Shown piece after piece: positions 2,290-31,061 of a DNA stretch of 31,061 nt. The stretch is from a virus. The notes beneath the pieces were generated by a model. The model did no database searches. It saw only the letters and a list, made by a program, of their open reading frames with translations, and had not been told where the DNA came from. Positions within the stretch are counted from its first letter, which is position 1. Each line of letters begins with the position of its first letter. Where the stretch lies: IMG/VR virus record IMGVR_UViG_3300043436_002183, positions 1-31,061 of that record; one strand, 5' to 3'. A program made the position numbers and the translations under genes.

Positions 2290-4368
2290 TTATGAATATA
2301 CTTGACTTAATAGAACTACTTGTAATTCGTCTGGCTTATTATTAAATGCACTCCAATCTGTTGAACTTAATGCACCTCTATTTGATGCACTTGCAGTTGG
2401 TAAATTAAACGTATGTGTGTCAGTTACTGAACTAATTGCAAAATCAGTTCCACTTGTTCCTACTGATAAATTTTGTACTTGTGCAGTCAGTCCGTTTAAT
2501 GCAGTTAAACCAGTTGAAAATGTTGTTATAACTTGGCAAAGATGATTATCTTCTGTGTGAAGTGTAATAGTTCTACCGCTATGAGTAACATATATTCTAA
2601 CTGCTAATCTATCAGTTGCTAATAATGTGGTTTGTGGAACTGCTAAAGCACTAAAATAAGCCTCTATATTTGTGCCGTCTGTTATTAATCTTGGAGTAGC
2701 TGAATTACTTGCTATTAAAGATAAAGTTGTTCCATTCCATTTATATAATTCAACGTAAAATGATGGACTTCCACCACCACTCGAAGCACTAAAATAAGTT
2801 TCAAAGTTCCAATTTCCCGCTGGTATTTCTAATTGATTAGGAACATTTGCATCTGTAATAAATGATTGAATATATCCATTTGCATTTATTGTAAAATCAG
2901 TACCAGCACCTAATATTGGTGTTCTGTCCATTTCTCTAAATGCAACACCGCCTATTGTGCCTTGAGATACACTTCCATTTAAATAAAATGATACAGAAGC
3001 ACCACCGCCACTACCACCACCGCCAGTAATATCACTTAAAAAAGCTAAAGTTCCATCACCATCTTGTAAAGTATATTTTCTACTTGCCGTTAATTCAGTA
3101 GTTGAAATACGAGCCATAATAGCACCATCTTTTGAAAGTACTGTCTGTCCATCTTCATCAGCAGTTGCAGAATTACCTAATAAATTTACGTTATTAAAAG
3201 TATTAGTAAATCCAGCTTCATAACCTAAAGCATTTACTGAATTTCCTGTATTTTGATACCCTGCTAGATTACCAATAGCATTAACTGTACTACCTGTATT
3301 TAGTGATGCAGCACCCGAACCAAAAGCATTAACATTCTCTCCTATATTACCCCCTGCGGCTTCTTGACCAAAAGCATTGAGCCATCTTCCTGTATTACCC
3401 GAAGCAGCATCACTACCAAAAGCATTAACTGAAAAAGCTGCTGTATTACCATCTCCTGCACCTGTTCCTTGAAAGTTAAGACCATCAACTAAATCATGAT
3501 TGTTGTCTAATACTTCTTGAAGTGTTGGAGTACCGCTACTTTGTAAAACCCAAACCGCAGCTCCTGTTGTATCATCCGTACAAACATAAACATCGCCATC
3601 GTCTAAAATCCAACGTGAATCAACAACAAAGCCTTTAGTATCGTCATCATTTACTGTTGGTGTAGTTGTAAAGTTATGAGATACTTCACGAATAGTAAAT
3701 CCATCACCACCCATAACATATAATCTACCCGCTTCCCATTTCAATTCGTAATCAACTGCACATCTCAAAGCAATACCTTTAGAACCACCAAGACCTGCAT
3801 CGGTTGTCCCTTTTTTTAAGTTTGCCCCATTGTCTAATACTATTTTATCACCATCGCTAATAGATATATCAGTACCATCGGTAATATTTCCTAATACTAA
3901 AGTTTCTGCAAGTGTTCCAGCTGAACCTGCTAAATTTACAACCGGATTTAAAGGATCAGTATTATCAACTGCACTACCGGTTACAGTTTGAACTCCAACC
4001 TCTGCCACTATTGGTATTCCAACAGCTAACTGCCAATGGTCTGTTAAACTCATAACAGCATTTAGTTCATCCGTACAAATAACATCAGGATAGCCGTTAA
4101 TGTTTAAATAAGTACCTGGACCACATAAAAAGAAGCCTGGTAATTCTGGAACATCCGGCAACTGTTGGCCATCGGTAACTGATATCGCAATATAACCAAC
4201 TCCACCACTTACACCAATAGCAGTAGCAACTAAATCAACTAACTCTTGAATAGTAGCAGATTTTAAATCAGTCCCTACGGTATGAGGAAATAAATTTGTT
4301 AAACTTAACGCTTCATCAGGTAGTTGGTCAACTCTAATCGTTGTAATTAATTCGGGATTTATTGCCAT
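2290..4368 (-). CDS. large tail fibre protein with 16-residue head-type repeats (692 aa)
   Basis: The N-terminus (MAINPELITTIRVDQLP ... GTDLKSATIQELV) is paralogous to that of the 180-aa gene upstream, so both probably dock on the same virion site. Residues about 313-396 hold at least five units of about 16 residues of the form VNAFGxxAxxxNTGxx, like the parallel beta-roll repeats of YadA-type adhesin heads. A Gly/Ser-rich linker (GGGGSGGGAS) follows, then a beta-rich C-terminal region ending near NRGALSSTDWSAFNNK, a segment common at fibre C-termini. It is likely a trimeric receptor-binding fibre. The 4-nt gap to the upstream gene puts them in one operon. Confidence 0.85.
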   Translation of the reverse strand: MAINPELITTIRVDQLPDEALSLTNLFPHTVGTDLKSATIQELVDLVATAIGVSGGVGYIAISVTDGQQLPDVPELPGFFLCGPGTYLNINGYPDVICTDELNAVMSLTDHWQLAVGIPIVAEVGVQTVTGSAVDNTDPLNPVVNLAGSAGTLAETLVLGNITDGTDISISDGDKIVLDNGANLKKGTTDAGLGGSKGIALRCAVDYELKWEAGRLYVMGGDGFTIREVSHNFTTTPTVNDDDTKGFVVDSRWILDDGDVYVCTDDTTGAAVWVLQSSGTPTLQEVLDNNHDLVDGLNFQGTGAGDGNTAAFSVNAFGSDAASGNTGRWLNAFGQEAAGGNIGENVNAFGSGAASLNTGSTVNAIGNLAGYQNTGNSVNALGYEAGFTNTFNNVNLLGNSATADEDGQTVLSKDGAIMARISTTELTASRKYTLQDGDGTLAFLSDITGGGGSGGGASVSFYLNGSVSQGTIGGVAFREMDRTPILGAGTDFTINANGYIQSFITDANVPNQLEIPAGNWNFETYFSASSGGGSPSFYVELYKWNGTTLSLIASNSATPRLITDGTNIEAYFSALAVPQTTLLATDRLAVRIYVTHSGRTITLHTEDNHLCQVITTFSTGLTALNGLTAQVQNLSVGTSGTDFAISSVTDTHTFNLPTASASNRGALSSTDWSAFNNKPDELQVVLLSQVYS

Positions 4369-5469: not shown

Positions 5470-5508
5470 TTTGTTTATAATCGTTCTAAATAAATTTTAT
5501 TACATTTG
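5470..5508 (+). promoter_or_regulatory. promoter for portal operon (-7 TACATTTG)
   Basis: TACATTTG at 5501-5508 lies 18 nt before the portal ATG at 5527. A TTTG at 5470-5473 is 27 nt upstream of it, longer than the usual 17-23 nt, so the -33 assignment is uncertain. It is divergent from the minus-strand box at 5449-5456, and both boxes have the same sequence. Confidence 0.6.
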
Positions 5509-12787: not shown

Positions 12788-12822
12788 ATTTTCTATTTTT
12801 TATAAATTAATGATTTCAAATT

Positions 12823-12830
12823 CAAAGATA
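12823..12830 (-). promoter_or_regulatory. late promoter -7 box (TATCTTTG) before tail tube gene
   Basis: CAAAGATA on plus reads TATCTTTG on minus, in the 81-bp gap upstream of the tail tube gene. The same octamer precedes the prohead protease gene and the terminase block. No -33 TTTG at about 19 nt is visible. Confidence 0.55.
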
Positions 12831-12868
12831 ATAATTTTATTTATATTTATTCTAAATAATTATAAAAT

Positions 12869-13270
12869 TTATTCTAATGTTAAAATTACTCGGATAAAGT
12901 TACGATAAACCGTTTGTGTTGTTGTGCTACTGTCTAAATTACTTGGGAACTCATATCTTCGGTTAACAACTGTAAACCCATCAATAGTAACGTTTTCAAT
13001 TAATGATAAAATATTGTTTTCCATGTCATCGTTAACCAATCTACTACCTACATTTCCCGCACCATTATAAATACAAACAATATCTAAAAGTGTATAAGAA
13101 ATCCATTGATAATTGCATTTAGTAGCTTTGTCAATCTCTTTGTCCTGTGTTGAAATAAGCACGTATTGAGTTGGATTATCATTGCCGGTTACTTGCATAT
13201 CATAACAATCATAATCGCCTATTATGGCATCGTATAAAGCTTTCCTAACGTATTTATTTGGATTTACCAT
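12869..13270 (-). CDS. tail completion / head-tail joining protein, DUF3168-like (133 aa)
   Basis: The protein begins MVNPNKYVRKALYDAI and contains IGDYDCYDMQVTG, PTQYVLISTQ and a final RNFIRVILTLE. This start, a variable middle and a beta-strand end with a conserved Arg are typical of the small proteins that complete the tail and join it to the head. It lies between the HK97 gp10-like gene (17-nt overlap) and the tail tube gene, exactly the canonical position. The assignment rests on position plus general pattern. Confidence 0.75.
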   Translation of the reverse strand: MVNPNKYVRKALYDAIIGDYDCYDMQVTGNDNPTQYVLISTQDKEIDKATKCNYQWISYTLLDIVCIYNGAGNVGSRLVNDDMENNILSLIENVTIDGFTVVNRRYEFPSNLDSSTTTQTVYRNFIRVILTLE

Positions 13271-16544: not shown

Positions 16545-16565
16545 TAAAATTAGTGTTTATAGATA

Positions 16566-16573
16566 CAAAGATA
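16566..16573 (-). promoter_or_regulatory. late promoter -7 box (TATCTTTG) before prohead protease
   Basis: CAAAGATA on plus reads TATCTTTG on minus, in the 70-bp gap between the large terminase (upstream, ends 16615) and the protease (starts 16544). It is identical to the boxes at 12823 and 18601. No -33 TTTG is seen at about 19 nt. Confidence 0.55.
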
Positions 16574-16614
16574 TAAATTTTATTTAGACTTAATATAAAT
16601 AGTATATATTTTTT

Positions 16615-17913
16615 TTAGAATGTAAAGAAAGTTTGTTTTAAGTCAAAGTAGAATCGCATTGCTAAAGCATCCGAGTAATCGGGTGAATGGCCTATCAACT
16701 CCTTTACTTTTTCTTTTGGCAATATCCTCAACTTACCATCTTGATCAATCTTATCTCTTTTAACCTGTTCTAACTCTTTGGTGATGACATCTTGTGTGTC
16801 TGCATTATTGCAATCGATAAATAGCTTATTCGCCTGGATCAGTTCTGCAAGTTTATAATAGCATTGTGTTTTTAGGTTTTGATATTCGACATTATTGTTT
16901 TCCTCTTTCAATGCTTTGGAGTTATTTACAAATCCTTTGCAACGTACAATATCCACAACACCACCACCAACACCATCTTCATCTGCAATTACGTTAGACA
17001 ATGGAACTCGATGTTTATTCATTAACGATTTGATTGCTTCGGCAGTTTCTGTAATACTGGACTTATCTAAAGTAAATATCTCAATAACCCGGAAGCCACT
17101 CCAAACTAATATAACCATCTTATCACTTCCGTATCGAGCAATATCCGCACTAATATACATATCACCACTATCAACAAAGTCGTTAGTAAATATGTTCTGA
17201 ATCTTATCAAAGTCGATAAGCCTTGCAGGATCATTGTCGAACTCCCAATTACCATAATATAGCCTTTGCTTACTATTCTCATCCAAAGCAAGTAAACTAT
17301 CTAAATAGGATAATGGTAAGTTAGGATTGTCAGTTGGAAGCGATTGTATAAACTTTCTCGTTTCTTTTATAGTTCCTGCAGCAGTAGGAATGTAAAACTT
17401 TGAATATGTCCAGTTCTTTGCCGGGTTACACGTTCCTAATATCTTTGGTGTTAAGTTATATTCATTTAGTTTATATCTTATCCTGGATGTAACTATTTGC
17501 CATGCTTTAAATGAAATTTGATTGCACTCATCTATAAAGGCGCCGGTTATCTCTAACGAACCTAAACTATCGAAGTTTGGATCAGCGGGATATGAATATA
17601 AATCCTTTAATAGTATTTCACTTCCATTGGTCCAGGTGATCACTCCCGTTTGACTATTGTAGTTATATGAAGTAGATAGCTTTAAATTGGATGTAAGTTC
17701 AAAGAAAGTGTTTAAAGTAGTTTCTTTTAATGTCTTTAGCTTTGACCTTCCCATTAACCAACGAGTTGCCGGATAGGTTTGGCATTGTTCAATAAGCCAT
17801 AAAACACCGAGAGCGGATTTGCCACCACCGGCAGCTCCGCCATAAAGTATTTCCTTTGTAATATTATCTTTTAAATAATAAACAGCGTGTTCTTGCTTAA
17901 TTAATAGTTTCAT
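16615..17913 (-). CDS. terL: large terminase subunit (432 aa)
   Basis: The packaging ATPase and nuclease. Walker A GGAAGGGKS at residues 25-33, Walker B FIDEC at 126-130, and the nuclease acidic residues Asp257 (ISADIAR), Asp311/Asp313 (VIADEDGVGG) and Asp415 (SPDYSDAL) are all present, in the expected order. The length of 432 aa is typical. Its start overlaps the end of the small subunit gene by 17 nt. The 432-aa form is complete and the promoter for the capsid block follows it. Confidence 0.96.
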   Translation of the reverse strand: MKLLIKQEHAVYYLKDNITKEILYGGAAGGGKSALGVLWLIEQCQTYPATRWLMGRSKLKTLKETTLNTFFELTSNLKLSTSYNYNSQTGVITWTNGSEILLKDLYSYPADPNFDSLGSLEITGAFIDECNQISFKAWQIVTSRIRYKLNEYNLTPKILGTCNPAKNWTYSKFYIPTAAGTIKETRKFIQSLPTDNPNLPLSYLDSLLALDENSKQRLYYGNWEFDNDPARLIDFDKIQNIFTNDFVDSGDMYISADIARYGSDKMVILVWSGFRVIEIFTLDKSSITETAEAIKSLMNKHRVPLSNVIADEDGVGGGVVDIVRCKGFVNNSKALKEENNNVEYQNLKTQCYYKLAELIQANKLFIDCNNADTQDVITKELEQVKRDKIDQDGKLRILPKEKVKELIGHSPDYSDALAMRFYFDLKQTFFTF

Positions 17914-18631: not shown

Positions 18632-18662
18632 TTTGGTAGTTTATTATAAATAACTATATTTG
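18632..18662 (+). promoter_or_regulatory. early promoter (TTTG-19-TATATTTG)
   Basis: TTTG at 18632-18635, 19-nt spacer, TATATTTG at 18655-18662. This is a full match to the Bacteroidota primary sigma consensus. The region around the -7 box (ATTATAAATAACTATATTTGC) is nearly the same as that at 19767-19797. It leads the plus-strand early genes from 18691. Confidence 0.88.
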
Positions 18663-19766: not shown

Positions 19767-19797
19767 TTTGTTTATTAATTATAAATTACTATATTTG
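19767..19797 (+). promoter_or_regulatory. promoter of kissing-loop RNA A (TTTG-19-TATATTTG)
   Basis: TTTG at 19767-19770, 19-nt spacer, TATATTTG at 19790-19797. RNA A folding starts 4 nt later. The element shares more than the consensus with the promoter at 18632-18662. Confidence 0.88.
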
Positions 19798-19800
19798 CTA

Positions 19801-19890
19801 AGCAGTTGGTCAGAACTGCTAAACACAAACATAACTAATTCCCTCTGACACTACATACTGACCTATGTTTTGAAAGAGGGATTTTTTATT
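19801..19890 (+). ncRNA. kissing-loop leader RNA, copy A
   Basis: P1: AGCAGTT (19801-19807) with AACTGCT (19814-19820), loop GGTCAG. A 20-nt linker follows. P2 terminator arms CCCTCT (19841-19846) and AGAGGG (19875-19880) are followed by ATTTTTTATTT. Inside P2, P3 ACATA/TATGT (19853-19857, 19864-19868) carries the loop CTGACC (19858-19863), the exact complement of the P1 loop, so the two loops can form a 6-bp kissing complex. RNA length to the end of P2 is 80 nt. The start codon of the next gene is at 19900, 20 nt after P2. It has the same plan as copies B, C and D. Confidence 0.85.
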
Positions 19891-19899
19891 TAAACTATT

Positions 19900-20115
19900 A
19901 TGAAAACACTATTTGACAATTTAAAAGAAGAACACAAATTGCAGTTGGAAGTGATGAAAGAAATTTATCCAAACTCCCACGCAAGATTGGTAAAAGCATT
20001 AGAGGATAATTATTTGTATTCTCTGCTGACAATATCAGATGCATATACCTTGATTTTAAACACGAGTAACAAAAGCTTTTCAATAACTAACCTATCAGAC
20101 CTATTTTATGAGTAA
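19900..20115 (+). CDS. hypothetical protein behind RNA A (71 aa)
   Basis: A 71-aa helical protein (MKTLFDNLKEEHKLQLEVMKEIYPNS ...) with no recognised motif. It follows the terminator of RNA A by 20 nt, so its expression needs read-through or another start of transcription. It overlaps the next gene by 8 nt. It may be a cofactor of the neighbouring recombination-like protein, but that is a guess. Confidence 0.78.
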   Translation: MKTLFDNLKEEHKLQLEVMKEIYPNSHARLVKALEDNYLYSLLTISDAYTLILNTSNKSFSITNLSDLFYE

Positions 20116-20645: not shown

Positions 20646-21353
20646 ATGAGTAATCGCAAACAGGCGTTCCAAACGCCACAATCCAATCCATCAACAAAGT
20701 TTATCGAGTGGAAATCAAACGACAAGTGTTTTTCTTACTACGACAAAGAGAAACAAATGAACGTTCAAATCCCTTTACCATTTAAGTTTTTAGTTCTTGA
20801 TGAACTTCACACCGTAAAAGGTTGGAATGATGCCACAAGTAGCAGCATTTATTCTAATGAGGTTAAATTCATTTCAAAAGAGGAGATGACTGTTAAACCT
20901 TTCAAAGGTAATGAAATTGCCAAAGGTCTTTACAAAGACATTAAAGAAAAAATTGTTGCAGCAGGTGGCCATTATACAAGAAGCATTTATGTTATGCTTG
21001 AAGATGGATCATTGGCCAATATTCAATTAAAAGGAAGCGCCACACAACAATGGGGTGATTTTACACAAAAGACTCGCTCCAAATTAGCTGATGAGTGGAT
21101 TATTGTAAAAGATACCAAAGATGGCAAAAAAGGGGCTGTTAAGTTTTCGATGCCAAACTTTGTGTTTGAAAAATCTTTAACGGATAAAGAATGTACAATG
21201 GCCGATGAGTGCTTTGACATTTTAGAGGCATACCTTAAAACCTATTTAATTAAAAAAGACATTAACGATATTGAGGTGGTTTTAAATGGAGACATAGCCA
21301 ATGACTTTAATGAATCACAAGAAGCTTCAGAGTTTGATGATTTAGATTTTTAA
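20646..21353 (+). CDS. putative ssDNA-binding protein (235 aa)
   Basis: A 235-aa protein with beta-rich middle (LPFKFLVLDELHTVKGWND, YTRSIYVMLEDGSLANIQLKGSA, WIIVKDTKDGKKGAVKFSMP) and a strongly acidic C-terminal tail ending ASEFDDLDF. An acidic tail with a terminal aromatic residue is the hallmark of replication SSBs such as E. coli SSB and T7 gp2.5, and the position beside recombination and primase genes fits. The RNA-like element E lies directly upstream and a terminator 22 nt downstream, so it may be a single-gene unit. I give SSB as likely, not proven. Confidence 0.72.
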   Translation: MSNRKQAFQTPQSNPSTKFIEWKSNDKCFSYYDKEKQMNVQIPLPFKFLVLDELHTVKGWNDATSSSIYSNEVKFISKEEMTVKPFKGNEIAKGLYKDIKEKIVAAGGHYTRSIYVMLEDGSLANIQLKGSATQQWGDFTQKTRSKLADEWIIVKDTKDGKKGAVKFSMPNFVFEKSLTDKECTMADECFDILEAYLKTYLIKKDINDIEVVLNGDIANDFNESQEASEFDDLDF

Positions 21354-21400: not shown

Positions 21401-21412
21401 ATTTTAAACCTC

Positions 21413-21633
21413 GGTTTAAAATTTTAAACTATTTTCAACCAAAAAAACGCATACAACCCTTATAAACATTAAGTTTTAAACCATTTGGTTTAAAATTTTG
21501 AATTAAAAAAAAATATTTTATAAAATAATTTTATTAAACAACTTTGAATGTTTTAAACCAAATAGTTTAAAAGTCAATGTTTACAAGGGTTTAAGAGATT
21601 TTATTGGTTGAAAATAGTTTAAAATTTTAAACC
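21413..21633. repeat. large imperfect inverted repeat, candidate replication origin
   Basis: Left arm 21413-21495 and right arm 21551-21633 are inverted copies over 83 nt without gaps, 72 matches by my count, the outer 30 nt identical, with a 55-nt A/T-rich centre. The arms are themselves made of TTTAAACC-type palindromes (for example at 21402-21421, 21474-21495, 21617-21632). Mismatches are not G-U pairs, so the structure looks like a DNA dyad and not a folded RNA. The 21354-21722 gap holds no gene. It sits just upstream of a HTH protein and the primase, so an origin or protein-binding region is the leading idea. Confidence 0.85.
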
Positions 21634-21696
21634 TTACTTTAAAAAGTAAATTAAATTTAATTTTAATTTAATTAGTTTATATTAAATTTATTTTTT

Positions 21697-21704
21697 TATA
21701 TTTG
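21697..21704 (+). promoter_or_regulatory. -7 box (TATATTTG) before HTH gene
   Basis: TATATTTG ends 18 nt before the ATG at 21723. No exact TTTG lies at about 19 nt upstream, but the region is very AT-rich. It is adjacent to the inverted repeat, so binding there could control this promoter. Confidence 0.65.
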
Positions 21705-21948: not shown

Positions 21949-21956
21949 TACATTTG
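21949..21956 (+). promoter_or_regulatory. -7 box (TACATTTG) of RNA B
   Basis: TACATTTG lies 4 nt before the first stem of RNA B, as in the other copies (4-6 nt). No clear TTTG -33 is present. Confidence 0.72.
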
Positions 21957-21960
21957 CTTC

Positions 21961-22057
21961 TGTAATGTTCTGGTGGGTTCATTACAACTAAAGAATTATT
22001 AAAATGTCCTTTAGGGAGTAGTTGCCACCACAACGAAACCTAAAGGATTTTTATTTT
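21961..22057 (+). ncRNA. kissing-loop leader RNA, copy B
   Basis: P1: TGTAATG (21961-21967) with CATTACA (21980-21986) enclosing TGGTGG (21971-21976). A 21-nt linker follows. P2 CCTTTAGG (22008-22015) pairs with CCTAAAGG (22039-22046), followed by ATTTTTATTTT. P3 GTTG/CAAC (22021-22024, 22031-22034) carries CCACCA (22025-22030), the exact complement of TGGTGG. Both loops are six nt and fully complementary. The RNA is 86 nt to the end of P2. It precedes the primase gene (start 22068) by 21 nt. Confidence 0.88.
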
Positions 22058-22067
22058 AAAAACAAAT

Positions 22068-24344
22068 ATGGAAGAATCTAAATTAAAAAAGTTCTACGAA
22101 AATTTTTCTTTGATAACAGTATCAGATAACAAAGTTCCTAACTTTATTTGGAAGCAATCTCAAAATGAAAAACAATCCTGGGATAGCTTTATTAAAAATT
22201 TTAATTACAAAGGCGGTATAATTAAGAAGGATGGTAAAGAAATCCCTGCAACTACAAATTTTGGAATAGTTACAGGATTTGATTACCTGGAGTGTATTGA
22301 TGTAGATTTAAAAGTATTTTCAACAGCAAAAGAACAGATTGCATTTTGGACTGAATATATTGCTTATTTAAAAGATAACATATTAGATTTTGAAGATAAG
22401 ATAGTCGTTTATAAAACTAAAAACGCTGGTTATCATTTACTCTATAAATCAAAACGAGTTGAAGGAAATCTAAAATTAGCAAAACTTAAAGGACATAAAG
22501 AAGCTGTAATTGAAACGAGAGGAATAGGTGGTTATATTTTTACGTATCCTGATAACAAAGTTTATAAAAAGAGTTACCATGATATTGATTTTATTAGTGA
22601 TGAAGATAGAGAGATTATTATTAGTTTTTCTAAAATGTATGACTATCAAGAACCACAAAAAGAAGTAACGGAAACAAAGAAAATTAAAAGTGAATATGTT
22701 GAAGGAGAAATATTGCCTTGGGATGATTTTAATCATAAAAACAATATTTACGATATAGTTGCTTCTGAATTTACAATAGTTGGAAATCACAAAGATAAAT
22801 ACATTATAAAAAGATATGGTGGCACTTCACCCCATAGTGGTTATATTTTTAAAAATGATAATATAATGTTTCTTTTTTCAACAGGAACTATATATCCTCA
22901 TGAAAAACCAATTTCACCTTATACGGCTTATACTTGGCAAAAATTTAATGGTGATTTTAGTGCTTCTGCAAAACAAATTTATATTGATGGTTATGGTAGT
23001 AGAAAAGTAAAAAATGAATTAGAGCCTAAAGAAAAAATTATAATAAATAAATCAGACCTTGAATTCCCTATTGATATATTTCCAAAATCAATTCAGTCTT
23101 ATATTTTAGAATGTAACCAAACTTTAGACAGTTCCATAGATTATATGAGCTGTTCTTTATTATGGCTAACTTCATTAAGTATTGGTAATAGTATGCAAAT
23201 AGAAGTCAAAAGAGGATGGACTGAAATTGCTACGATTTGGGTGGCTATTGTAGGTAAAGCCGGTATAGGAAAAACACCATCCATATCAAATATTATATTT
23301 CCTTTAGAAAAAATTAATAATAGAGAAATAGCTAATTATATTAAAGAATACGAAAAATATGAGTATTACAATGGACTTTCAAAGAAAGATCAAGAAGAGT
23401 GCATGGAAGTCAATAAACCTATTAAAAACCAATTTATAGCCAATGATATAACTATTGAAGCTTTAGTTGATTTGCATCAGCAAAGCGATAATTCAGTTGG
23501 AGTTTTTAAAGATGAGTTAGCAGGATGGTTTAAAGATATGAATAAATATAAGCCAGGTTCAGATTTAGAGTTTTGGCTATCTACTTGGAGTGGAAAGTCT
23601 GTAAATTTAAATAGATTGACAAGAGCCGGATCATTTGTGGCAAAGCCATTAATTCCTGTTTTGGGTGGAATACAACCAAATATTTTTAATTCATTCTATA
23701 CTGACGACAATAAAGATAATGGGTTTATGGATAGAATGTTATTATCATTTCCTGATTTAACTATTGAAAGTTATAATGAAAATGAAATGAATTATGATAC
23801 TATTCAATGGTATAGTGATACTATAATTGCTTTTTATGATACTATAAAAAATAAAATTATTAATAGAGATGCTGATGGAGCCATTGTACCTAAAGTTGTT
23901 AAATTCAATGCTAAATCCAAATCGGAATGGATGCGAATTTTTAATGAAATAACAGAAATTCAAAACAGCGAAAGCGAAAATGAATATATGAAATCAATGT
24001 TGCCAAAGCAAAAGTCTTATATTCCACGCTTCGCTCTTTTAATACACGTTTTTGGCGCAATAGGGCAAACAAATTACAATTTAGATGAAATATCAGTTGA
24101 TTCTATTTTAAAGGCGGAAAAGCTATCTAAATACTTCATCGCTATGGCTAAAAAAGTAAAAATTGATAGCATTGAAGTTTCAGAAATACGAAAGGTTTTA
24201 AAAACTAATGATGGCAAAACTAATAAGGATAAGTTTGCTTTGCTTTATGAAGCCAATAAAAACTTAAATAAAAAAGAAGTATCGGAACAACTTGGCGTTT
24301 CATTGCAGATGATTTATAAATATATTAAAGAATTAGATAAATGA
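22068..24344 (+). CDS. primase/ATPase replication protein with DUF3987 domain (758 aa)
   Basis: The N-terminal third resembles the bifunctional primase-polymerase domain: GIVTGFDYLECIDVDLKV, then TKNAGYHLLYKS and ETRGIGGYIFTYPDN. The middle has the DUF3987 P-loop ATPase: Walker A GKAGIGKT at residues 396-403, then VFKDELAGWFKDMN near 480 and the LGGIQPNIF and GFMDRMLLSFPD segments. A C-terminal HTH (KEVSEQLGVSLQMIYKYIKE) ends the protein. It is likely the replicative primase-helicase. The gene lies behind RNA B and the inverted repeat, with a 4-nt overlap with the next gene. Confidence 0.9.
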   Translation: MEESKLKKFYENFSLITVSDNKVPNFIWKQSQNEKQSWDSFIKNFNYKGGIIKKDGKEIPATTNFGIVTGFDYLECIDVDLKVFSTAKEQIAFWTEYIAYLKDNILDFEDKIVVYKTKNAGYHLLYKSKRVEGNLKLAKLKGHKEAVIETRGIGGYIFTYPDNKVYKKSYHDIDFISDEDREIIISFSKMYDYQEPQKEVTETKKIKSEYVEGEILPWDDFNHKNNIYDIVASEFTIVGNHKDKYIIKRYGGTSPHSGYIFKNDNIMFLFSTGTIYPHEKPISPYTAYTWQKFNGDFSASAKQIYIDGYGSRKVKNELEPKEKIIINKSDLEFPIDIFPKSIQSYILECNQTLDSSIDYMSCSLLWLTSLSIGNSMQIEVKRGWTEIATIWVAIVGKAGIGKTPSISNIIFPLEKINNREIANYIKEYEKYEYYNGLSKKDQEECMEVNKPIKNQFIANDITIEALVDLHQQSDNSVGVFKDELAGWFKDMNKYKPGSDLEFWLSTWSGKSVNLNRLTRAGSFVAKPLIPVLGGIQPNIFNSFYTDDNKDNGFMDRMLLSFPDLTIESYNENEMNYDTIQWYSDTIIAFYDTIKNKIINRDADGAIVPKVVKFNAKSKSEWMRIFNEITEIQNSESENEYMKSMLPKQKSYIPRFALLIHVFGAIGQTNYNLDEISVDSILKAEKLSKYFIAMAKKVKIDSIEVSEIRKVLKTNDGKTNKDKFALLYEANKNLNKKEVSEQLGVSLQMIYKYIKELDK

Positions 24345-26799: not shown

Positions 26800-26807
26800 T
26801 ATATTTG
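26800..26807 (+). promoter_or_regulatory. -7 box (TATATTTG) of RNA C
   Basis: TATATTTG begins 5 nt after the VRR-NUC stop and lies 5 nt before the RNA C stem. No TTTG at -33. Confidence 0.75.
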
Positions 26808-26812
26808 CTGAA

Positions 26813-26895
26813 GTAGAGTCGTCGCTACAATTAAAAATTTATACAATTCCCGCAATGATAAAGACGACGACCTTTTGATTTGCGGGTTTTTATTT
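26813..26895 (+). ncRNA. kissing-loop leader RNA, copy C
   Basis: P1: GTAG (26813-26816) with CTAC (26825-26828), loop AGTCGTCG. A 20-nt linker follows. P2 CCCGCAA (26849-26855) pairs with TTGCGGG (26880-26886), followed by TTTTTATTT. P3 AAAG/CTTT (26860-26863, 26872-26875) carries ACGACGAC (26864-26871); GTCGTCG and CGACGAC pair over 7 bp. Between P2 and P3 the two strands both read TGAT, a symmetrical internal loop with tandem G-A pairs, as in copy D. The RNA is 74 nt to the end of P2. It precedes the 79-aa gene (start 26903). Confidence 0.88.
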
Positions 26896-26902
26896 AAAAA
26901 AT

Positions 26903-27142
26903 ATGAATACATTATCAGTACAGGGATTTAAAATTGACATTAACCACTTTGATACTCAAATATCAAAAAGTGGCAGACCATTTAGATTGAGTGGTGTTGA
27001 AATAGTAAGAACTAAACCAGCGCAATGGGTGAATAAGATGCTATTGCATGGAACTATTTACAGCTTCAGATATTTAGATGAGCAAGATGGCTTCTTTGCT
27101 TTTGAGTTTGATCCGTTTAACAATTTTATTTCAAAAATATGA
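26903..27142 (+). CDS. hypothetical protein behind RNA C (79 aa)
   Basis: A 79-aa protein, predicted beta-rich (SGRPFRLSGVEIVRTKP; LHGTIYSFRYLDEQDGFFAFEFDPF), without known motif. The start codon stands 16 nt after the terminator of RNA C. It overlaps the next gene by 4 nt. It heads a run of five small genes that ends at the terminator near 28200. A role in replication control or host takeover is possible but not supported by a motif. Confidence 0.78.
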   Translation: MNTLSVQGFKIDINHFDTQISKSGRPFRLSGVEIVRTKPAQWVNKMLLHGTIYSFRYLDEQDGFFAFEFDPFNNFISKI

Positions 27143-29309: not shown

Positions 29310-29777
29310 TCATAGTTTAGACAAAACTAAATCTCTTTTTTTAACTGCGTCAAAAATATTATCAAAAGTACCAAAACTTTGTCTAATTCCATTAATTTTT
29401 ATTCTAACTCTAAATGCTGTTTTATTTTTACTTTTACTAAAATAAATGCAATTTTCTCCAGTAACACTTATTCTGTCTTTTGTAGAATTTATTCTTTTCG
29501 TTGTTATTTGTAAATTTGATAAGTCATTATTTAACGGATTGTTATCTATATGATCCACTATAAAATTACCATCAACACCATAATTTAAAAAATAAATACC
29601 TAATAATCTATGTATTGTCTTTGTTTTTTTTATTGCTCCATTAACCAATTTTATAACAAAATAACCTTTTTTAGAAACAACATTAGTTAAAACCTTCCCA
29701 CTTTTTACATTTTTTACTCTACCTAAATTACTTATTTCGTAATTAGGAAAATCATTTAATTTTTTAAATACTTCCAT
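29310..29777 (-). CDS. HNH homing endonuclease with NUMOD4-type start (155 aa)
   Basis: The N-terminus (FKKLNDFPNYEISNLGRVKNVKSGKVL) is a NUMOD4 DNA-binding motif. The HNH core follows: His56 in IHRLL, then DHIDNN at 75-80 and LQITT. The C-terminal 45 residues (ENCIYFSKSKNKTAFRVRI ... FGTFDN) resemble the AP2-like strand-rich domain that follows HNH in phage endonucleases. Such genes are mobile and nick or cut unoccupied target sites. It is preceded by RNA D with its own promoter and terminator, 7 nt from the ATG, so expression depends on passing that terminator. Confidence 0.92.
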   Translation of the reverse strand: MEVFKKLNDFPNYEISNLGRVKNVKSGKVLTNVVSKKGYFVIKLVNGAIKKTKTIHRLLGIYFLNYGVDGNFIVDHIDNNPLNNDLSNLQITTKRINSTKDRISVTGENCIYFSKSKNKTAFRVRIKINGIRQSFGTFDNIFDAVKKRDLVLSKL

Positions 29778-29783
29778 ATAATT

Positions 29784-29860
29784 AAAAACCCACTTATCAA
29801 AGGTCGCAGTCTTATCAAAGTGGGAGTTTATTAAGTTCTTATAAGTATCTGCGACAATAC
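29784..29860 (-). ncRNA. kissing-loop leader RNA, copy D
   Basis: On the minus strand, P1 GTAT (29860-29857) with ATAC (29848-29845), loop TGTCGCAG. A 20-nt linker follows. P2 CCCACTT (29824-29818) pairs with AAGTGGG (29795-29789), followed by TTTTTAATT. P3 AAG/CTT (29813-29811, 29802-29800) carries ACTGCGAC (29810-29803); GTCGCAG and CTGCGAC pair over 7 bp. TGAT stands on both sides between P2 and P3, as in copy C. RNA to the end of P2 is 72 nt. It lies directly before the HNH gene (ATG 29777). Confidence 0.88.
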
Positions 29861-29865
29861 ATACA

Positions 29866-29873
29866 CAAATATA
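29866..29873 (-). promoter_or_regulatory. -7 box (TATATTTG) of RNA D
   Basis: CAAATATA on plus reads TATATTTG on minus, 5 nt before P1 of RNA D and just after the metallophosphoesterase stop codon at 29879. No TTTG lies 19 nt upstream. Confidence 0.7.
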
Positions 29874-29878
29874 ATTAA

Positions 29879-30904
29879 TTAAACTATAACTCCATTAATA
29901 ATTCTCATATTTTTTACACTATAATTCCCATCTTTACCAACCAAAACGTGAGCAAAACCACTATTGTAATTGTTATATGGCGCATATTCAGGTTCAAGTC
30001 CGCAAAGACAACCTGTTGACCAAGTAGTAGTAACTTCTCCTGATAAATTTTTTTCTGAATGTTCGCTAGTTCTATGTGAATGACCAACTAAAGCCGATTG
30101 CTTTGCTTTCATAAACAAACCTCGTGCAGGATTAACAGGCGGTGCAAATCCACCAAACCATTCGTGGCCATGAAGTATTGGAAGCTTACCGGCCATTGCC
30201 ATTTGCTTATCTTTCACAAGCGTAACTCCGAACTCCCTAAATCGTAAAAGTTGCTCAAGTTTGAAATCATCAATCCCTAATAACTCCGGAGCTTTAATCA
30301 TCAAATAATCTTCGTATCTTTTTTCGTGATTTCCTATTTTATAGTAAATCGGACATTTGAATAAGTCTTGCATCATTTTTAGAAAACCTCTAACCATTTC
30401 TAACTCACCCGCCATATCCCTCAATCGTCTGTCTTTAGTAAATCGACTGCATTGGTAGAAATCTGCGATATCACCGTTTAAGTAGATTGTATTGACTTTG
30501 TTTTCTAAACCATAATTAATTGCCAATTCTAAAGCTTTATTGTCCTGGTATGGAAAATGAATATCGCTTAATATCAAAATATTGTTTTGCCCTTTTGGAA
30601 TTATAAAGGATTCGCACTTTTCATAATCGCTGTTAGGTAGGTCAATTACTCTGCTCATAGATTGTTTTTTTTGGGTTTCTGTACGTTCTCCGATTTTAGA
30701 AATAGTCGAATTATTTTTACCATTCTCACCTCTATATCTTCTTACGTTGGTTCTTACGGTTTCAAATGAATTAAAGTCTAATTTATGCTCATCATAAATT
30801 AATCTTGCAATAGCCATTGTAGTTGCGTTTGGGAACTTATTAATGAATGATAAAACAATGTCTTTTTTGTAAGTTGCAGCGTTTTGATTGCCTTTTATGC
30901 TCAT
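29879..30904 (-). CDS. calcineurin-like metallophosphoesterase (341 aa)
   Basis: Motifs of the two-metal phosphoesterase family are all present: SDIH at 113-116, GDIADF at 144-149, GNHE at 191-194, HGHE at 245-248 and GHSH at 274-277. The N-terminal 60 residues carry a winged-helix-like segment (ATTMAIARLIYDEH) that may bind DNA, so the substrate could be a nucleic acid or nucleotide; the exact one is unknown. It is the wrap-around gene: its first codons recur at 1-19. It lies downstream of the lysozyme terminator (about 54 bp), and RNA D starts immediately after its stop. Confidence 0.92.
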   Translation of the reverse strand: MSIKGNQNAATYKKDIVLSFINKFPNATTMAIARLIYDEHKLDFNSFETVRTNVRRYRGENGKNNSTISKIGERTETQKKQSMSRVIDLPNSDYEKCESFIIPKGQNNILILSDIHFPYQDNKALELAINYGLENKVNTIYLNGDIADFYQCSRFTKDRRLRDMAGELEMVRGFLKMMQDLFKCPIYYKIGNHEKRYEDYLMIKAPELLGIDDFKLEQLLRFREFGVTLVKDKQMAMAGKLPILHGHEWFGGFAPPVNPARGLFMKAKQSALVGHSHRTSEHSEKNLSGEVTTTWSTGCLCGLEPEYAPYNNYNSGFAHVLVGKDGNYSVKNMRIINGVIV

Positions 30905-31061
30905 AAGTTTTTAGTTTGGTTTTTCAAACCTACAAAAAAAGTATTGAATAACAATACTTTAAGGAGTAAAATATAAATCAGCTTCTTTTATTCTACGATT
31001 AGTTAAGCCTTTTAATGCAACTCCATTAGCCTTGTTCCATCGTAAAAATTCGTTTCTAATA
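30886..31061. repeat. terminal direct repeat, right copy
   Basis: Matches 1-176 apart from 31013, 31022 and 31025. All three lie in third codon positions of the lysozyme frame and change no residue. The pattern supports a circular genome overlap from two related variants. Confidence 0.93.
30959..31061 (-). CDS. lysozyme C-terminal part (partial, right copy)
   Basis: The final 33 full codons and stop of the endolysin gene, cut by the window end. Silent differences at three codons (Leu, Gly, Asn) set it apart from the left copy. The same terminator-like hairpin precedes it on the left (30934-30960). Confidence 0.9.
   Translation of the reverse strand, partial: IRNEFLRWNKANGVALKGLTNRRIKEADLYFTP

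Follow-up and report, generated by a model that had tools for sequence, protein, structure and literature searches.

A kissing-loop leader ahead of a phage primase gene: a candidate family of transcription attenuators at early promoters

In the window (the whole 31,061-nucleotide stretch analysed here, a 31-kb uncultivated virus record), a short RNA appears to end directly in front of a primase gene. What would a terminator do at such a place? An earlier note on this DNA had proposed that it gates the primase gene, which would then be made by read-through with a kissing-loop fold as the switch, or that the RNA serves as an RNAII-like replication primer near a candidate origin. We examined the locus, its sister copies in the window and its relatives in other phages.

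Copy B and its sister copies

The locus, copy B, and the gene that follows it comprise these features:

21949..21956, plus strand: -7 box TACATTTG, of the TAnnTTTG type (Bacteroidota primary sigma factor)
21961..21986, plus strand: 5' hairpin H1, TGTAATG TTCTGGTGGGTT CATTACA, with loop TTCTGGTGGGTT and kissing stretch TGGTGG at 21971-21976
21987..22005, plus strand: A/T-rich linker
22006..22048, plus strand: terminator hairpin H2, with lower stem CCTTTAGG/CCTAAAGG, internal loop GAGTA/GAAA (AGUA/GAA, sarcin-ricin-like), upper stem GTTG/CAAC and apical loop CCACCA at 22025-22030
22048..22057, plus strand: T-run of the intrinsic terminator
22068..24344, plus strand: putatively gated gene, a Prim-Pol-like / DUF3987 primase-helicase of 758 aa (Pfam PF13148, E 1e-47; PHROG helicase and DNA polymerase/primase)

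The two loops of copy B, TGGTGG and CCACCA, are complementary. Refolding of 21961-22057 gave -26.8 kcal/mol (z = -3.3), with none of 200 shuffles equally stable, and bore out the sequence and fold first described for copy B. The 21-nt gap reported between terminator and primase had been counted from 22046; the ATG at 22068 lies 19 nt after the stem. As in an attenuator, the promoter is separated from the start codon by a GC-rich hairpin with an immediate U-run.

The Bacteroidota primary sigma factor uses TAnnTTTG as its -7 box, a consensus confirmed in Flavobacterium johnsoniae (PMC7366714). Because such a box lies at 21949-21956, the copy B RNA likely starts at the base of H1. Neither this box nor the minus-strand copy D before an HNH gene had figured in the earlier note.

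Four elements of the same design are found in the window (A at 19790, B at 21949, C at 26800 and D at 29873 on the minus strand), with different loops and each immediately before an ORF. The three besides copy B are:

19790..19889, plus strand: copy A; -7 box at 19790, H1 at 19801-19820 with loop GGTCAG, H2 at 19840-19881 with a loop containing CTGACC, T-run; before ORF 19900-20115
26800..26894, plus strand: copy C; -7 box at 26800, H1 at 26813-26828 with loop AGTCGTCG, H2 at 26849-26886 with loop ACGACGAC, kissing pair GTCGTCG/CGACGAC, T-run; before ORF 26903-27142
29781..29873, minus strand: copy D; -7 box at 29873-29866, H1 with loop TGTCGCAG, H2 at 29824-29789 with a loop containing CTGCGAC, kissing pair GTCGCAG/CTGCGAC, T-run; before HNH endonuclease ORF 29777-29310 (PHROGs)

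No element accompanies other TAnnTTTG boxes in the window, for example at 5501 (ahead of the portal operon), at 18655 and at 21697 (ahead of a small HTH-like gene). Two AT-rich 80-nt copies that are 71% identical (12804-12883 and 16547-16626) carry a minus-strand TATCTTTG box without the kissing-loop element, and are probably twin promoters of minus-strand operons.

Some 300 nt upstream of copy B lies an AT-rich inverted repeat (21402-21644) with 101-nt arms, 82% complementary and 41 nt apart, built of TTTAAAC-type units. It is likely a replication origin. Similar GGTTTAAAA runs are found upstream of primases in relatives, where they often adjoin the element.

The element in related phages

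Related contigs were gathered using the primase and the gene at 20646. The descriptor applied to them asks for a -7 box, H1, H2, a T-run and at least five Watson-Crick loop-loop pairs (score of at least 24), with H1 boundaries set by simple rules. It matched 158 times in 157 sequences from related phage contigs versus 3 times in dinucleotide shuffles of the same sequences. Since the descriptor itself demands loop-loop pairing, the search was repeated blind to kissing: at least 6 bp of loop-loop complementarity was present in 43 of the 105 representatives, against at most 8 over 500 permutations of the second loop.

The kissing stretches have 58% G+C in a genome of 31% G+C, and a median duplex energy near -11 kcal/mol. 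Their sequences diverge widely among members with complementarity kept, and neither primary sequence nor loops are conserved from one member to another. In some relatives (L001-L003, L009), the H1 stem is weak or absent and the loop pairing is retained. Two copies in one genome never shared a kissing sequence (47 pairs); in an orthogonality test for trans action, cross-pairing runs of at least 6 nt were no rarer within one genome than between genomes. Linker length showed no positive correlation with the predicted length of the helix stack.

Covariation was assessed by subtype. When the kissing pairs of the C/D-type alignment were entered as a pseudoknot, 98.4% of cells were paired, with double changes at 13 of 21 pairs. 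Three of these doubly changed pairs belong to the kissing helix, where pairing is complete (100%). None of 500 shuffles matched this, and slid controls dropped to 28-52%. For the B-type (AGUA/GAA) subfamily, both the lower and the upper H2 stem covary (double changes at all 13 pairs), and between them AGUA opposite GAA is invariant, as in a sarcin-ricin/bulged-G motif. This internal loop was rejected as a family-wide trait: it marks the B-type subtype and is lacking in members of types A, C and D.

Behind H2, 99 of 101 family members have a T-run, even when the search did not require it. An ORF begins with ATG 10-45 nt after H2 in 92% of members versus 10% of random positions, and H1 mostly starts 3-5 nt past the -7 box. 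The linkers have a median of 18 nt and are 49% A.

The genes downstream encode primase/DUF3987 proteins, DUF3987 helicases, a helicase, Erf-like, SSB-like and VRR-NUC-like proteins, HNH and GIY-YIG-like endonucleases, and small early ORFs; outside the window, these names come from reading the sequences rather than from profile searches. The searched contigs were chosen around replication genes, which biases the gene-class counts except in twelve whole or near-whole phage contigs. In those twelve, no element precedes a recognisable structural gene, and all precede early, replication or endonuclease genes, "early" denoting gene class rather than timing. Free-standing HNH-like genes with a MEVWK... 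start repeatedly have their own promoter and element (29310-29873 on the minus strand of the window, L002, L005, L017, L019, L098 and L145), as if homing endonucleases travelled with a kissing-loop leader.

A strict element lies within 480 nt upstream at 38 of 72 primase loci, compared to 11 of 360 control windows. Upstream of primases that share at least 91% identity with that of the window, the element comes in at least three unrelated versions (TGGTGG, CCATCAC and CCTCTTAC), each keeping its own matching partner. Therefore, whole elements have been replaced and the pairing persists.

Two pattern scans of IMG/VR recovered the full element in 49 of 138 new loci. A further C/D-type pattern scan of all viral contigs returned 44 stretches (L204-L247), all of them rejected by the full descriptor; the pattern alone is therefore undiagnostic.

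Attenuation and competing readings

Taking the sequence evidence together, we consider it reasonably probable that copy B is a member of a phage-borne family of cis-acting kissing-loop transcription attenuators at early promoters. The family seems not to have been described before and would serve as a brake built into the control of early phage genes. The proposal that copy B gates the primase gene stands in this form: given the near-universal T-runs and the close ATG, gating by a terminator with a kissing-held loop is the best-supported reading. The RNAII-like part of the proposal is not supported.

Transcription would start at the base of H1, as the -7 box suggests, and H1 would fold first. 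Once a roughly 18-nt A-rich linker and H2 have emerged, the loops of H1 and H2 would pair by 6-9 bp. The conserved U-run would then halt the polymerase after about 95 nt, shortly ahead of the ATG, releasing an RNA of that length and leaving read-through as the only route to primase synthesis. As the 6-25 nt between H2 and the ATG are too short for another promoter, the gene could hardly be transcribed from a promoter of its own without crossing the terminator.

In several members, the kissing loop is 7-8 nt long and caps a perfect stem of 11-17 bp; L035 and L064, for example, have an 8-nt kissing loop on top of a 17-bp terminator stem, so that H2 can stay closed during kissing. Since kissing and terminator stem can thus coexist, we infer that kissing lends stability to the terminator or tunes it, instead of acting as a mutually exclusive antiterminator. 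On the most economical reading, the kissing complex would nucleate or stabilise the terminator, allowing a low and adjustable read-through into early genes.

A broader proposal, which we put forward tentatively and would for now sooner doubt than accept, is that this is a widespread class of leaders in Bacteroidota phages. Intramolecular kissing on the terminator hairpin would set early-gene read-through, either by the folding of the RNA itself or through a factor that reads its shape, and loops and whole elements would be freely exchanged.

Known systems share parts of this design. The plasmid systems pT181 repC, ColE1 RNAI/RNAII and pMV158 rely on kissing of 6-8 nt between loops that differ from relative to relative, and plasmid antisense attenuators combine kissing with an intrinsic terminator before the replication gene. 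The phage element resembles them in its kissing loops, in a terminator ahead of a replication gene and in its divergent loops, but has both kissing partners in one RNA, several copies per genome and many classes of downstream gene. Antisense control of the pT181/ColE1 type was considered and rejected: an opposite-strand TAnnTTTG box occurs within 150 nt downstream in 3 of 48 cases versus 14% in the control, and none was found near copy B.

Like terminator riboswitches and leader attenuators, the element is a folded 5' leader with an intrinsic terminator at its end, upstream of a gene, and kissing hairpins also occur in the purine aptamer of the kissing-loop purine riboswitch. Unlike terminator riboswitches, it has no conserved ligand core, its kissing uses the terminator's own loop, and no Rfam 15 covariance model matched copies A-D up to E = 1. 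Neither a conserved ligand pocket nor a conserved protein site was found in the element, nor a description of such an RNA in the open-access literature.

Four alternatives to cis-acting attenuation deserve weighing. The H2 hairpin stands 6-25 nt upstream of the AUG, and it could control translation if its loop were captured by the H1 loop (L1) or by an L1 copy close to the AUG, thereby setting ribosome access. A GTTGCAG/AATGCAG subfamily (L300, L307, L314, L301, L295 and similar) indeed has a third L1 copy at or just before the ATG that changes in step with L1 and L2, and L076 has a near copy. We nevertheless judge this account rather unlikely, given that the third copy is absent from all four elements of the window and that a conserved T-run follows the stem immediately. 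As a general rule, the third copy before the ATG was rejected (6 of 56 representatives, within the permuted range, confined to one subfamily), though translation may be involved in that subfamily. The terminated RNA of about 95 nt might instead be a trans-acting phage small RNA, with leaky read-through or promoters further upstream serving the neighbouring gene. Its promoter, 5' hairpin and terminator make up the full anatomy of a small RNA gene, and a kissing complex would shield the RNA. Since sequence and loops are unconserved between members, however, no shared trans target is evident, and an ATG almost always follows shortly after the element, which a free small RNA gene would not need; we hold this to be unlikely as well.

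The put RNAs of phage HK022, two stem-loops immediately after early promoters and present in more than one copy per phage, suggest another role, in which the H1-H2 complex would bind the elongating polymerase and make it ignore its own and later terminators. The likeness lies in two hairpins right after early promoters, several copies per phage, and structure rather than sequence being conserved. Yet put RNAs lack a terminator, while in the phage element the second hairpin is one and its U-run is nearly invariant; put stem-loops are almost contiguous, compared to the linker found here, and we know of no kissing pair in them. Antitermination is accordingly quite improbable in our view. Least credible is the RNAII-like primer, which we regard as very improbable. 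Its appeal comes from the inverted repeat upstream of copy B and from the GGTTTAAAA repeats beside the element in relatives, but a primer RNA would have to belong to a single origin. Such repeats are lacking at copies A, C and D and at most relatives, the four copies are dispersed on both strands, and the element of relatives precedes unrelated genes (homing endonuclease, Erf, SSB-like and small early genes). The primer role was rejected on this genomic context.

Distribution and further observations

Among cultured phages, the element is present in the Flavobacterium phages 11b (33621), FCL-2 (37475) and FCV-1. FCV-1 carries a different version at the position orthologous to that of FCL-2, and a second element near 40388. 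On the host side, a covariance model of the B-type hairpin was run on 397 genomes of the Psychroflexus family and gave a clear match only on the phage contig of one MAG, in a search of lower sensitivity with few candidates scored per genome. At that sensitivity a host-chromosomal origin was rejected, as the three weak matches in those genomes look like plain terminators by eye and fail the descriptor.

Bacteroidota 5' leaders and small RNAs have been mapped in B. thetaiotaomicron (PMC7366714). They share the TAnnTTTG promoter type and intrinsic terminators with the element; those, however, are host RNAs, whereas the element family was found in phages and is essentially absent from the host-family genomes at the sensitivity of that search.

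If the broader proposal holds, a phage could tune several early operons together by RNA alone. Little is known about the regulation of early transcription in Bacteroidota phages, and the element would give their early promoters a recognisable RNA device, helping to flag early operons in uncultivated phage genomes. Its presence in cultured Flavobacterium phages makes the proposal directly testable. Moreover, dozens of independent natural loop pairs are a resource for work on kissing loops and intrinsic termination.

Further features of the window were observed. The minus-strand ORF 2290-4368 (692 aa) contains five tandem 48-nt repeats at 3175-3429 and has no PHROG match. The gene at 20646-21353 belongs to PHROG 6706, and within the phage collection it has relatives, about 30% identical, only among mycobacteriophage proteins. 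Finally, the window ends in a terminal direct repeat of 176 nt (1-176 and 30886-31061) with 98% identity, and the differences between its two copies point to population variation where a circular or terminally redundant genome is joined.
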